From positions 1-44,421 of the forward strand of contig NZ_VORY01000024.1 in the NCBI RefSeq assembly GCF_007997295.1: a stretch of DNA of 44,421 nt. The letters are read 5' to 3'. The notes under the pieces are model-generated. The model saw nothing but the letters and a program-made list of their open reading frames with translations. It had not been told where the DNA came from and ran no database searches. Both the position numbers and the translations under genes were made by a program. Shown piece by piece: positions 33,413-35,683 of this stretch (position 1 is the stretch's first letter; each line of letters starts with the position of its first letter). This DNA is from Gillisia hiemivivida. Lineage in GTDB: Bacteria > Bacteroidota > Bacteroidia > Flavobacteriales > Flavobacteriaceae.

Positions 33413-33421
33413 AAAGTACAC

Positions 33422-33455
33422 AAAAAAAGCCCTCCATAAATGGAAGGCTTTCTTT
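33422..33455 (-). terminator. Terminator copy A
   Basis: An imperfect stem (AAAGCC-TCCAT / ATGGA-GGCTTT) with a T-run on the minus strand, identical to the terminator after the intact tRNA-Val at 35609. Confidence 0.75.
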
Positions 33456-33457
33456 CG

Positions 33458-33516
33458 TGGGCAATGAGGGATTCGAACCCCCGACCCTCCCGATTTAAAT
33501 CGGGATGCTCTAAACC
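33458..33516 (-). pseudogene. 3' fragment of a tRNA gene, copy A
   Basis: On the minus strand it starts GGTTTAGAGCA in the D-loop and runs through a T-arm (GGGTTCGAATCCC) and acceptor end (ATTGCCC plus discriminator A) identical to the nearby tRNA-Val genes. The 5' acceptor strand and D-stem are missing. The anticodon arm is replaced by a perfect 18-bp palindrome TCCCGATTTAAATCGGGA (33488-33505). The nuclease stop codon TAG (33510-33512) lies inside the fragment. It cannot fold as a tRNA alone. Confidence 0.85.
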
Positions 33517-33764
33517 TTTTTTTCTTCAATTAATTTTTCAATCATTAATCTACTTTTCCTTTTCTTAATTTGTAGCTCTCTGGCTTGTGCATCTGTTTTT
33601 TTAGAAAATTCTTCAGAATAAACAAGAACCCAATCTTTTGCTTTGGAAGTAAACCCTAAATGATTGTATAAGTGAGATTTTAGCCGTTCTTCAATGTTGG
33701 AAGTATGACCAACATAGTATTTATTCAATTGCCTAGAATGAAGAATGTAGAGATAAAATCGCAT
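33510..33764 (-). CDS. Small GIY-YIG nuclease, intact copy
   Basis: 84 residues from ATG 33764; a GTG at 33779 is an alternative. GIY-YIG elements are RFYLYILHS and KYYVGHTSNIEERLKSH (with the catalytic Arg), and the catalytic Glu is probably in [12 protein letters not shown]. It belongs to the YhbQ/UPF0213-like (COG2827) single-domain group, with no DNA-binding domain added. Its stop codon lies within a tRNA 3' fragment and its leader directly follows a tRNA-type terminator, so its expression would rely on read-through. The near-identical second copy and its site suggest a mobile or homing-like module; activity is unproven. Confidence 0.85.
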   Translation of the reverse strand: MRFYLYILHSRQLNKYYVGHTSNIEERLKSHLYNHLGFTSKAKDWVLVYSEEFSKKTDAQARELQIKKRKSRLMIEKLIEEKKV

Positions 33765-33780
33765 CAAACCAAAATACACT

Positions 33781-33814
33781 AAAAAAAGCCCTCCATAAAT
33801 GGAAGGCTTTCTTT
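33781..33814 (-). terminator. Terminator copy B
   Basis: The same hairpin as copy A and as the terminator after tRNA-Val at 35573-35606. Confidence 0.75.
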
Positions 33815-33816
33815 CG

Positions 33817-33875
33817 TGGGCAATGAGGGATTCGAACCCCCGACCCTCCCGATTTAAATCGGGATGCTCTAAACC
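33817..33875 (-). pseudogene. 3' fragment of a tRNA gene, copy B
   Basis: Identical in layout to copy A, 359 bp away: D-loop to acceptor 3' end, with the 18-bp palindrome at 33847-33864 in place of the anticodon arm. The stop codon of the interrupted nuclease lies at 33869-33871. Confidence 0.85.
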
Positions 33876-33999
33876 TTTTTTTCTTCAATTAATTTTTCAA
33901 TCATTAATCTACTTTTACATTTCTTAATTTGTAGCTCTCTGGCTTGTGCATCTGTTTTTTTAGAAAATTCTTCAGAATAAACAAGAACCCAATCTTTTG

Positions 34000-34021
34000 G
34001 GCTCAACACATAAAGTTGTGG
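34000..34021 (+). repeat. Left terminal inverted repeat of the IS
   Basis: 22 bases starting GGCTCAACAC, matching the right end at 16 positions. Confidence 0.8.
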
Positions 34022-34060
34022 AGTAACTAAAAATGGGAGAACTTTGAAATAAAAATTTTG

Positions 34061-34417
34061 ATGTCCTCAGATTCACTATTATCCCTTGCCAACTTATTAC
34101 TTCCCGAGATACTCGTTACCTACTTTGACTTAACAAAGCACAAAATCAAAGATGAGGAGCTACACTTTTATTTTACAGAACTAAACGAAATTCCTGATAT
34201 GTATAGTGGGGCTAAGCTTCATTCAAAAGGCTTCTTTCCAGAAGCTACAATTCAGGATTTTCCTATACGAGGAAAGAATGTTTTTCTACACATAACGCGG
34301 CGAAGATGGCTTGATGAAGACTCAGGTAAAGCGGTTTCAAGAGATTGGCAATTAGTAGCAAAAGGAACTAGAATCACTAGTGAGTTTGCTGCTTTTTTAA
34401 AAGAGATCCATCAATAA
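34061..34417 (+). CDS. Transposase N-terminal region (orfA)
   Basis: 118 residues from ATG 34061. It starts [15 protein letters not shown], contains [29 protein letters not shown] and ends [10 protein letters not shown]. This corresponds to the separate N-terminal protein of ISAon1-type elements, which should carry the DNA-binding part of the transposase. The second frame overlaps its 3' end (34401-34417), shifted by +1. A T6A4 run (34393-34402) just before the overlap is a plausible slippage site that would fuse the two products. Confidence 0.82.
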
Positions 34418-35393
34418 CAATGCTTCTAGTACATCGGTTGTTGCCAAGTTCTATGGCGTCAATCCAAGAAGCCTGCAAAGGCAATACAAAGATTATTTAA
34501 GCGATTTTAAAGTTTGGGATCAAAAAGGACACGCAAAGCAGTGGCTCCTGTTTGCTCAAAACTTAGGAAGCCATTTATCTCTTGACGAGACAGCTTTTTC
34601 CAATGGCGATCTATACACCATTTTGACCAATAAAAAAGCAAAAGGTAAGAAAGGAGCCTTAGTTGCAATGGTCAAAGGAACCAAAGCCGAGAACGTTATA
34701 AAAATATTACATAAAATTCCATTAAAACAGAGGAAGATGGTCAAGGAAATAACCTTGGATATGGCGGGAAATATGGGGCTCATTGTTAAAAAATCATTCC
34801 CAAACGCTACTTTAGTCATAGATCGTTTCCACGTCCAGAAACTAGCATTAGATGCATTACAGGAAATTAGGATCAAACATAGATGGAAAGCACTAGATAT
34901 TGAGAATGATGCCATAGAATATGCCAGAAACAAATCCCTAAAATATACTCCAGAGTTGCTCTCCAATGGAGATACATTAAAGCAGTTACTGGCTAGAAGC
35001 AGATACCTACTCTATAAATCTAGCAATAAATGGACTGAAAATCAATCAAATAGAGCAACAATACTCTTTCAACACTACCCTGATCTAGAAAAAGCATACA
35101 AATTATGCCAAAATCTATCTTGGATATTCAACAACACAAAAGACAAAACCTCCGCATTGATTCGATTGGCTAAATGGGATGAAAAGGTTAGGCAGGCAGC
35201 ATTTAAAAGCTTCAATACCATTGCTAGAACAATGTCCATACACTATAAAAACATCCTTAACTACTTCGATAACCGAAGCACTAATGCTTCAGCAGAATCA
35301 TTTAACGCAAAAATTAAAGCTTTTAGAGCGCAATTCAGAGGGGTTAGGAATGTAGATTTCTTCCTGTTTAGACTAACAACAATTTTTGCATAA
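34401..35393 (+). CDS. Transposase catalytic region (orfB), DDE type
   Basis: The frame is open from just after a TAA at 34398-34400 to 35393 (330 codons). The first ATG-like start within it is internal (TTG 34623), so it is probably made as a fusion with orfA. The DDE residues are likely Asp in LSLDETAFS, Asp in LVIDRFHVQK and Glu in STNASAESFNAKIKAF. The C-terminus FFLFRLTTIFA is the normal family end, so the protein is complete. It catalyses cut-and-paste or related transposition of the element. Confidence 0.85.
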   Translation, partial: KRSINNNASSTSVVAKFYGVNPRSLQRQYKDYLSDFKVWDQKGHAKQWLLFAQNLGSHLSLDETAFSNGDLYTILTNKKAKGKKGALVAMVKGTKAENVIKILHKIPLKQRKMVKEITLDMAGNMGLIVKKSFPNATLVIDRFHVQKLALDALQEIRIKHRWKALDIENDAIEYARNKSLKYTPELLSNGDTLKQLLARSRYLLYKSSNKWTENQSNRATILFQHYPDLEKAYKLCQNLSWIFNNTKDKTSALIRLAKWDEKVRQAAFKSFNTIARTMSIHYKNILNYFDNRSTNASAESFNAKIKAFRAQFRGVRNVDFFLFRLTTIFA

Positions 35394-35403
35394 TCTCGAA
35401 ATC

Positions 35404-35425
35404 CCACAAGTTTTTGACTTGATCC
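35404..35425 (-). repeat. Right terminal inverted repeat of the IS
   Basis: 22 bases reading inward GGATCAAGTC on the minus strand; flanked by the target duplication 35426-35433. Confidence 0.8.
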
Positions 35426-35572
35426 ATCTTTTGCTTTGGAAGTAAACCCTAAATGATTGTATAAGTGAGATTTTAGCCGTTCTTCAATGTTGGAAGTATG
35501 ACCAACATAGTATTTATTCAATTGCCTAGAATGAAGAATGTAGAGATAAAATCGCATCAAACCAAAGTACAC

Positions 35573-35606
35573 AAAAAAAGCCCTCCATAAATGGAAGGCT
35601 TTCTTT
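35573..35606 (-). terminator. Terminator after tRNA-Val 1
   Basis: An imperfect stem AAAGCC-TCCAT / ATGGA-GGCTTT followed on the minus strand by seven T's, just after the tRNA 3' end. It is repeated at 33781 and 33422. Confidence 0.85.
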
Positions 35607-35608
35607 CG

Positions 35609-35683
35609 TGGGCAATGAGGGATTCGAACCCCCGACCCTCTCGGTGTAAACGAGATGCTCTGAACCAACTGAGCTAATTGCCC
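35609..35683 (-). tRNA. tRNA-Val (UAC), gene 1
   Basis: 75 bases including the discriminator A; no encoded CCA. Acceptor GGGCAAT / ATTGCCC, D-arm AGCTCAGTTGGTTCAGAGC, anticodon stem TCTCG / CGAGA with loop TTTACAC (anticodon TAC), T-arm loop GTTCGAATC. It is the second gene of a two-tRNA transcript and the site next to which the nuclease cassettes are inserted. Confidence 0.96.

Follow-up and report, generated by a model that had tools for sequence, protein, structure and literature searches.

The window analysed here is a stretch of 44,421 nt from Gillisia hiemivivida (contig NZ_VORY01000024.1), and our subject is a tandem array of small cassettes within it, each combining a gene for a tiny GIY-YIG nuclease with a partial, altered copy of the tRNA-Val gene behind which it lies. 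Read along the minus strand, the locus consists of two tRNA-Val genes, a terminator, nuclease gene 1, a tRNA copy, a terminator, nuclease gene 2, a further tRNA copy, a terminator and a leader stub. Both tRNA-Val(tac) genes are intact, where the original prediction had named one: an outer copy at 35753-35828 (called by ARAGORN; 71.1 bits with the Rfam tRNA model) and the anchor of the array at 35608-35683 (ARAGORN, Rfam and sequence comparison), which differs from the outer copy by two anticodon-stem bases in the sequence comparison. The anchor is followed by the first terminator hairpin and leader (35558-35607, with the start codon placed by the repeat offset) and by nuclease gene 1, split by an insertion sequence (IS) into a 5' part at 35426-35557 (GIY-YIG match 35369-35551; repeat D4) and a 3' part at 33872-33999 (family match 33872-34012; repeat D1). 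Then come, recognised by its DNA match to tRNA-Val, the first tRNA-Val 3' copy (33816-33875), in which the anticodon arm is replaced by TCCCGATTTAAATCGGGA, the second terminator hairpin and leader (33765-33815, from sequence comparison), the intact 84-residue GIY-YIG nuclease gene of unit 2 (33513-33764; PF01541 and conserved residues), the second tRNA-Val 3' copy with the same TCCCGATTTAAATCGGGA hairpin (33457-33516, again from its DNA match to tRNA-Val), and the third terminator with a 9-nt leader remnant at 33413-33421 (together 33413-33456, from repeats and sequence comparison). All of these features lie on the minus strand.

The predicted 359-nt unit was borne out by the repeat spacing, 33422-33640 and 33781-33999 being identical at 217 of 219 positions in a repeat search that listed the array, which Tandem Repeats Finder did not. 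When both sides of the IS were compared with the intact unit, 217/219 and 152/154 positions agreed; the two tRNA-Val 3' pieces are identical, and the terminator hairpin occurs three times with one sequence, as had been claimed. The picture of tandem nuclease cassettes holds insofar as there are two units, but only unit 2 (33422-33780) has an intact nuclease gene. Its protein, also rightly predicted, scores 57.9 bits against the GIY-YIG family PF01541 (89-aa frame; cut-off 22.6), and its TAG stop (33510-33512) does lie inside tRNA-derived sequence. That sequence is not, however, the plain tRNA 3' part of the original prediction, since the TCCCGATTTAAATCGGGA hairpin stands in place of the anticodon arm. 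Residues Y6, Y17, G19, R27, H31 and E63, which we take to be catalytic, are invariant in an alignment of 13 GIY-YIG sequences. Unit 2 contains no sizeable open reading frame (ORF) besides the nuclease gene; no transposase of the DDE, HUH or REPtron kind was found among its ORFs, nor an ORF of the size of a tyrosine integrase. In DNA folding, the tRNA copy of the window gave a z-score of -2.2 and the intact tRNA one of -3.2.

The layout recurs far beyond this locus. A profile (A1) built from 13 sequences, a match to which is not necessarily a tRNA-linked cassette, found matches in 219 of 249 Flavobacteriaceae and in 266 of 392 Bacteroidota genomes (E 0.001 or better), and whole-genome searches of five named carriers gave two to seven matches each. 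Besides, a scan of the genome_contigs collection with a Val-type profile yielded 409 relatives, the best 80 of which bear titles that we take to be all from Bacteroidota. We annotated the best locus per genome in the family (30 loci) and in the phylum (27), 40 lower-ranked phylum loci and these best 80 of the 409 genome_contigs relatives (L087-L166). The 40 (L240-L279) were taken in list order, leaving out places at contig edges, further array units and, for reasons unrelated to tRNAs, G629:C66, G516:C322, G524:C34 and G546:C116. Removal of 10 duplicates reduced the 177 loci to 167 distinct ones; counts on 177, as well as shuffle, array and stem counts, include duplicates. An intact tRNA on the same strand lies within 300 nt upstream of the nuclease at 129 of the 167 distinct loci, namely, by set and before removal of duplicates, at 22/30 (family), 24/27 (best in phylum), 28/40 (lower-ranked) and 65/80 (genome_contigs), with median tRNA-nuclease distances of 48-54 nt per set, while an adjacent tRNA on the opposite strand was found at none of the 177 loci. 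The 129 anchors fall into 11 isotype/anticodon types: Val(tac) in 56 cases, Arg(tct) in 19, Asn in 18, Asp in 12, Ala in 9, Phe in 6 and Met in 3, with Arg(acg) and Val(gac) twice and Pro and Thr once each. The search of relatives proposed with the original prediction thus found the layout in many genera. At one locus (L187, G524) a succession of tRNA-Asp and tRNA-Gly genes, for the most part spaced by about 101 nt, leads up to the cassette.

The altered tRNA copy is equally recurrent. We examined 123 distinct loci with an upstream tRNA, having set aside five at which the tRNA was cut off or too little 3' sequence was available, and L116. At 103 of them the copy of the locus's own tRNA 3' of the first nuclease outscored the best of 20 tRNAs of other isotypes, with three ties. 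A hairpin of the form CCCGN..NCGGG lies within 130 nt 3' of the nuclease at 89/123 loci, as against 7/123 for 130-nt stretches at the intact tRNA, 0/123 at the gene start and 8/2680 in shuffled sequences. Among distinct loci that could be placed, the tRNA resumes after the hairpin at 0-based index 45 in Val(tac) (34/38), 44 in Arg(tct) (8/8) and Ala (5/8), 61 in Phe (5/5), 58-59 in Asp (8/9) and 50 in Asn (5/8); the two Met loci disagree (44 and 57). The register is therefore mostly fixed per isotype, so that the hairpin takes the place of the anticodon arm in Val, Arg and most Ala copies and of the T-arm in Phe and Asp copies. At loci of the anticodon-arm isotypes, counted with duplicates, the flank could be located 73 times; in 66 of these cases it directly adjoins a perfect stem of 5 bp or more, which in 62 reads exactly TCCCGA..TCGGGA. 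Among the stems, the seventh pair is TA in 39, AT in 13, CG in 11 and GC in 2; the search took the longest perfect stems, so that pairing is partly built in, although the fixed core letters are not. The tRNA copy is not simply a decayed tRNA. A fixed core with varied outer pairs would fit with a folded or palindromic site that is recognised in a sequence-specific manner.

ARAGORN names several hairpin-bearing copies tRNA-Stop(tta), tRNA-SeC(tca) or tRNA-Glu(ttc), as at L058 (1393-1461), L060 (1376-1452), L063 (1731-1808) and L116 (2296-2372; all in nuclease orientation), and annotators should be aware that calls of this kind in Bacteroidota may be false. The tRNA-Glu(ttc) of L116 was rejected, being a hairpin-bearing tRNA-Arg copy with the intact tRNA-Arg 251 nt upstream.

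Both states of the tRNA-Val locus occur among Gillisia relatives, which settles, in favour of the original prediction, the comparison of filled and empty sites suggested with it. The locus is empty in G006 and G015, where two tRNA-Val genes and a terminator are followed by the flanking gene; in G013 the second tRNA is followed by the cassette and then by the murF flank, and in G005, whose contig begins inside the tRNA, the cassette stands before the same flank as in G006. In a murF tree, filled G005 groups with empty G006 (support 81), and filled and empty genomes are intermixed in the clade. Arrays are common: at least two nuclease starts lie less than 700 nt apart at 56/177 loci, and 68 of 77 nuclease spacings fall within 280-420 nt (median 367). 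In G148, five complete units were tested and three of them have one and the same sequence over 381 nt, which suggests recent amplification. Downstream of the tRNA-Val of G001 (L223), there are three repeats of about 90 bp, each made up of the hairpin, the tRNA 3' end and the terminator but lacking a nuclease gene, which read as a putative non-autonomous remnant. The ratio of nonsynonymous to synonymous substitution rates (dN/dS) was 0.06-0.41 in 33 listed nuclease pairs at 70% identity or more, some of which are the same locus under two identifiers and many of which are near silent-site saturation. On a weakly resolved tree of 127 proteins, which carries one false label (L116), the tRNA labels need 28 changes, where the minimum is 11 and shuffled labels need 66.7 on average (none of 200 shuffles as low); nuclease clades thus follow tRNA isotype, with some switches.

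The original prediction overlooked, in addition to the arm-replacing hairpin and the IS, a second array in G. hiemivivida outside the window. A family search found 11 GIY-YIG places in this genome, and on contig C15 three of them stand in tandem, 373 nt apart, one with stops. By comparison with L069 and L080, which have intact tRNA-Phe, their tails are tRNA-Phe 3' ends with the T-loop replaced by a hairpin; no tRNA gene was found in the C15 stretch itself. Transfer-messenger RNA (tmRNA) was considered as the source of this tail and rejected in favour of that assignment; the Rfam tmRNA model did give weak hits (13.3 and 16.7 bits, against a cut-off of 47), but these fall on the tRNA-Val copies of the window itself. 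Elsewhere, at L022, the start of a cassette and a tRNA-Phe 3' end are neighboured by a 479-aa ORF (408-1847), which by eye had been read as a tyrosine recombinase, a reading that was not confirmed, as no Pfam family was found; the short tRNA-Phe end recurs at L033, where no tRNA was called.

As for the IS, it is of the ISL3 type, measures 1,426 bp (34000-35425; DDE_Tnp_ISL3, PF01610, E 5.5e-51) and is flanked by an 8-bp target duplication, ATCTTTTG, at 33992-33999 and 35426-35433. It contains a small ORF (34058-34417) and a transposase with the DDE_Tnp_ISL3 domain (34623-35393), and it is not part of the cassette; the DDE transposase of the region belongs to the inserted IS and not to the nuclease unit. 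On the plus strand, a remnant resembling the left IS end (33363-33406; repeat D5, 89% identity) lies only 6 nt from the array end at 33413. Of the third unit that had been predicted, the 9-nt leader remnant is indeed there, but as the array end abuts this remnant, the unit is a mere stub. By eye, ISL3-like ends are seen in or beside cassettes at all three own-genome cassette sites inspected, that is, at 34000-35425 of the window, at both ends of the C15 array (L012) and at about 1-130 of L022 (C38).

How might these observations fit together? The layout, its recurrence, the tRNA match, the hairpin and its register, the link of clades to isotypes, the interspecies filled and empty sites and the low dN/dS of close pairs are direct observations, on which we base the proposal, to which we give about an even chance, that the cassette is a minimal tRNA-anchored element of homing type, spread by nuclease-stimulated homologous recombination. 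Its unit would comprise a GIY-YIG gene of about 80-90 codons and a host tRNA copy, covering either most of the tRNA or its 3' half, with one arm replaced by a CCCG-core hairpin (TCCCGA..TCGGGA in the anticodon-arm types), ending at many loci in a copy of the tRNA's terminator. The nuclease would nick or cut either the hairpin or the arm that corresponds to it in the tRNA gene, and the break would be repaired by homologous recombination between tRNA copy and tRNA gene. Within one chromosome, such repair may build or shorten tandem arrays; against a cassette-free chromosome, it would copy the cassette in behind the tRNA and leave the tRNA intact. Homology of the tRNA copy would set which tRNA is used, the common hairpin being what the protein sees. 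More tentatively, and with a good deal of doubt, we suggest that the nuclease recognises the CCCG-core hairpin, that the tRNA copy serves as homology arm to one tRNA gene, and that these enzymes could be the missing partners of CCCG-core repetitive extragenic palindromes (REPs) in Bacteroidota; if true, a selfish element of about 360 bp would be targeted by a rule in two parts.

Several points weigh against the homing proposal. Of the minimal mobile element tied to tRNAs that was originally predicted, the tie is well supported, whereas its movement, like cleavage and the cleavage site, is what we infer. Insertion of a homing endonuclease gene would destroy its own site; at the cassettes one arm is replaced in the copy, and the tRNA gene itself is intact. 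This intact tRNA persists in the filled allele, where it would have to escape the nuclease. The filled and empty alleles are those of species of one genus rather than of strains. No intact tRNA lies within 300 nt upstream at 38/167 distinct loci, some of them at contig ends, and six of 177 have a tRNA downstream only; besides, profile A1 was partly built from tRNA-linked loci, so that the adjacency counts describe that clade and not all small GIY-YIG proteins. In 34/123 loci no hairpin was found under the definition used, a leader or terminator copy outscored controls in only 76/120, and the median dN/dS over all 282 usable pairs, mostly distant ones, was 0.52. A relative on a viral contig of IMG/VR (L280, 2395-2734) has a tRNA-Ala 36 nt away on the other strand.

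Tandem repeats behind a tRNA might also have a humbler origin. Plain local duplication was rejected because the pattern recurs across genomes. A passive hitchhiker, in which the GIY-YIG gene has long stood behind tRNAs and arrays arise by ordinary unequal recombination between tRNAs and terminators, the nuclease being dispensable, seems unlikely to us: direct repeats do amplify unaided and nuclease-free units also occur in arrays, as in the three repeats of about 90 bp at L223, but dN/dS of close pairs is low, one layout recurs at 11 isotype/anticodon types, the hairpin register is mostly fixed per isotype, and the hairpin is kept even in nuclease-free units. That the unit serves the host, the altered tRNA copy acting as RNA (as decoy, in processing or in regulation) at the end of the nuclease message and the nuclease having a host role, we consider quite improbable; in its favour the seventh stem pair keeps pairing with different letters, yet presence is patchy within a genus. 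A phage or plasmid origin has little support. Neither 50,697 phage records (E 1e-4) nor the viral contigs gave a match to the window protein; profile A2 found six relatives on viral contigs (27-52% identity), and the plasmid matches are three Sinorhizobium records (43.5% identity).

Alternatively, the nuclease could be dedicated to CCCG-core palindromes, as REP-associated tyrosine transposases (RAYTs) are to GTAG REPs, with the tRNA copy being one landing site among others. The core is conserved at cassettes, and this palindrome is also scattered through genomes: G. hiemivivida has 131 matches to TCCCGAN3-10TCGGGA (control 0), 15 relatives have 6-83 each (controls 0-4), and in 20 own-genome regions (L286-L305) the palindromes form the cores of at least two kinds of longer repeat. 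One kind has GTCACCCTG before the core and GTTTCAGGGTC after it. Palindrome and nuclease-match counts correlate, uncorrected for kinship, with a rho of 0.52 over 249 genomes (control -0.03) and 0.80 over 16 of the genus. However, rho drops to 0.16 once one palindrome per nuclease match is subtracted and to 0.11 by density (p 0.075), and many genomes with nuclease matches have few palindromes. A link between nuclease and dispersed palindromes is therefore a possibility only, and we doubt that such a partnership is the better account; we retain the homing-type element as our working proposal.

At some loci the arrangement departs from the usual one. At L072, L075 and L081, a 5' piece of tRNA-Asn bearing a hairpin lies upstream and the intact tRNA-Asn downstream, and at L044 (G009), a stronger hit, broken copies of tRNA-Pro whose anticodon arms are GC-rich and palindromic are repeated 3' of the nuclease and followed by a tRNA-Pro. 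Two weaker GIY-YIG relatives (L037 and L045) lie 22 nt directly upstream of tRNA-Arg.

If mobile, the cassette would count as an autonomous element of very small size that is widespread in one phylum and undescribed in the PubMed Central (PMC) literature that we searched, in which no description of the cassette system was found, preprints and most subscription papers falling outside its coverage. Elements that integrate at tRNA genes by means of a tyrosine integrase leave the tRNA intact, as the cassette does, although no integrase was found in the unit. The 178-bp repeats at E. coli tyrT likewise stand in tandem behind a tRNA gene and include a tRNA 3' end, but unlike the cassettes they are not known to have a nuclease gene. 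In Neisseria, the small GIY-YIG nucleases of the Ssn family act on single-stranded palindromic repeats. The best solved relatives of the Val-type profile are small GIY-YIG proteins of the UPF0213 type (1zg2, E 6e-7; 1ywl, E 2.6e-4); by contrast, the 14 loci of weaker GIY-YIG hits in the genus (E 1e-6 or worse) are rarely tRNA-linked, with an upstream tRNA at one (L039, tRNA-Leu) and a downstream one at two. Like GTAG and CGTC REPs, the cassette hairpin is a short palindrome; unlike them, it lies inside tRNA copies and beside a GIY-YIG gene, and in the hairpins read by eye no unpaired CGTC tag was seen beside the stems. CGTC-type REPs are reported from Bacteroidetes, G. forsetii being named, include the Neisseria dRS3 and are said to be without a dedicated transposase (PMC3733652). 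The cassette nuclease offers a concrete candidate enzyme for palindromic repeats whose spread is presented there as an open question (PMC3733652).

The closest analogue of the cassette appears to be SegB of phage T6, a GIY-YIG homing endonuclease which is reported to drive tandem amplification of tRNA and segB by homologous recombination and to share microhomology between its 3' end and tRNA sequence (PMC13096335). The nuclease gene of the cassette likewise has its 3' end within tRNA sequence, and as reported for T-even phages a free-standing GIY-YIG gene is tied to tRNA genes and repeated in tandem with tRNA sequence (PMC13096335). In a comparison that did not include SegB itself, three of four proteins matched phrog_5123 weakly (E 6.7e-5 to 3.4e-3); as for a phage host such as that of SegB, there was no phage match, and viral contigs held the six relatives noted above. 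Unlike SegB, the cassette resides in bacterial chromosomes, encodes a single domain of about 84 aa, forms isotype-linked clades and carries a hairpin-altered tRNA copy, and it may thus represent a bacterial parallel to SegB-driven tRNA amplification.

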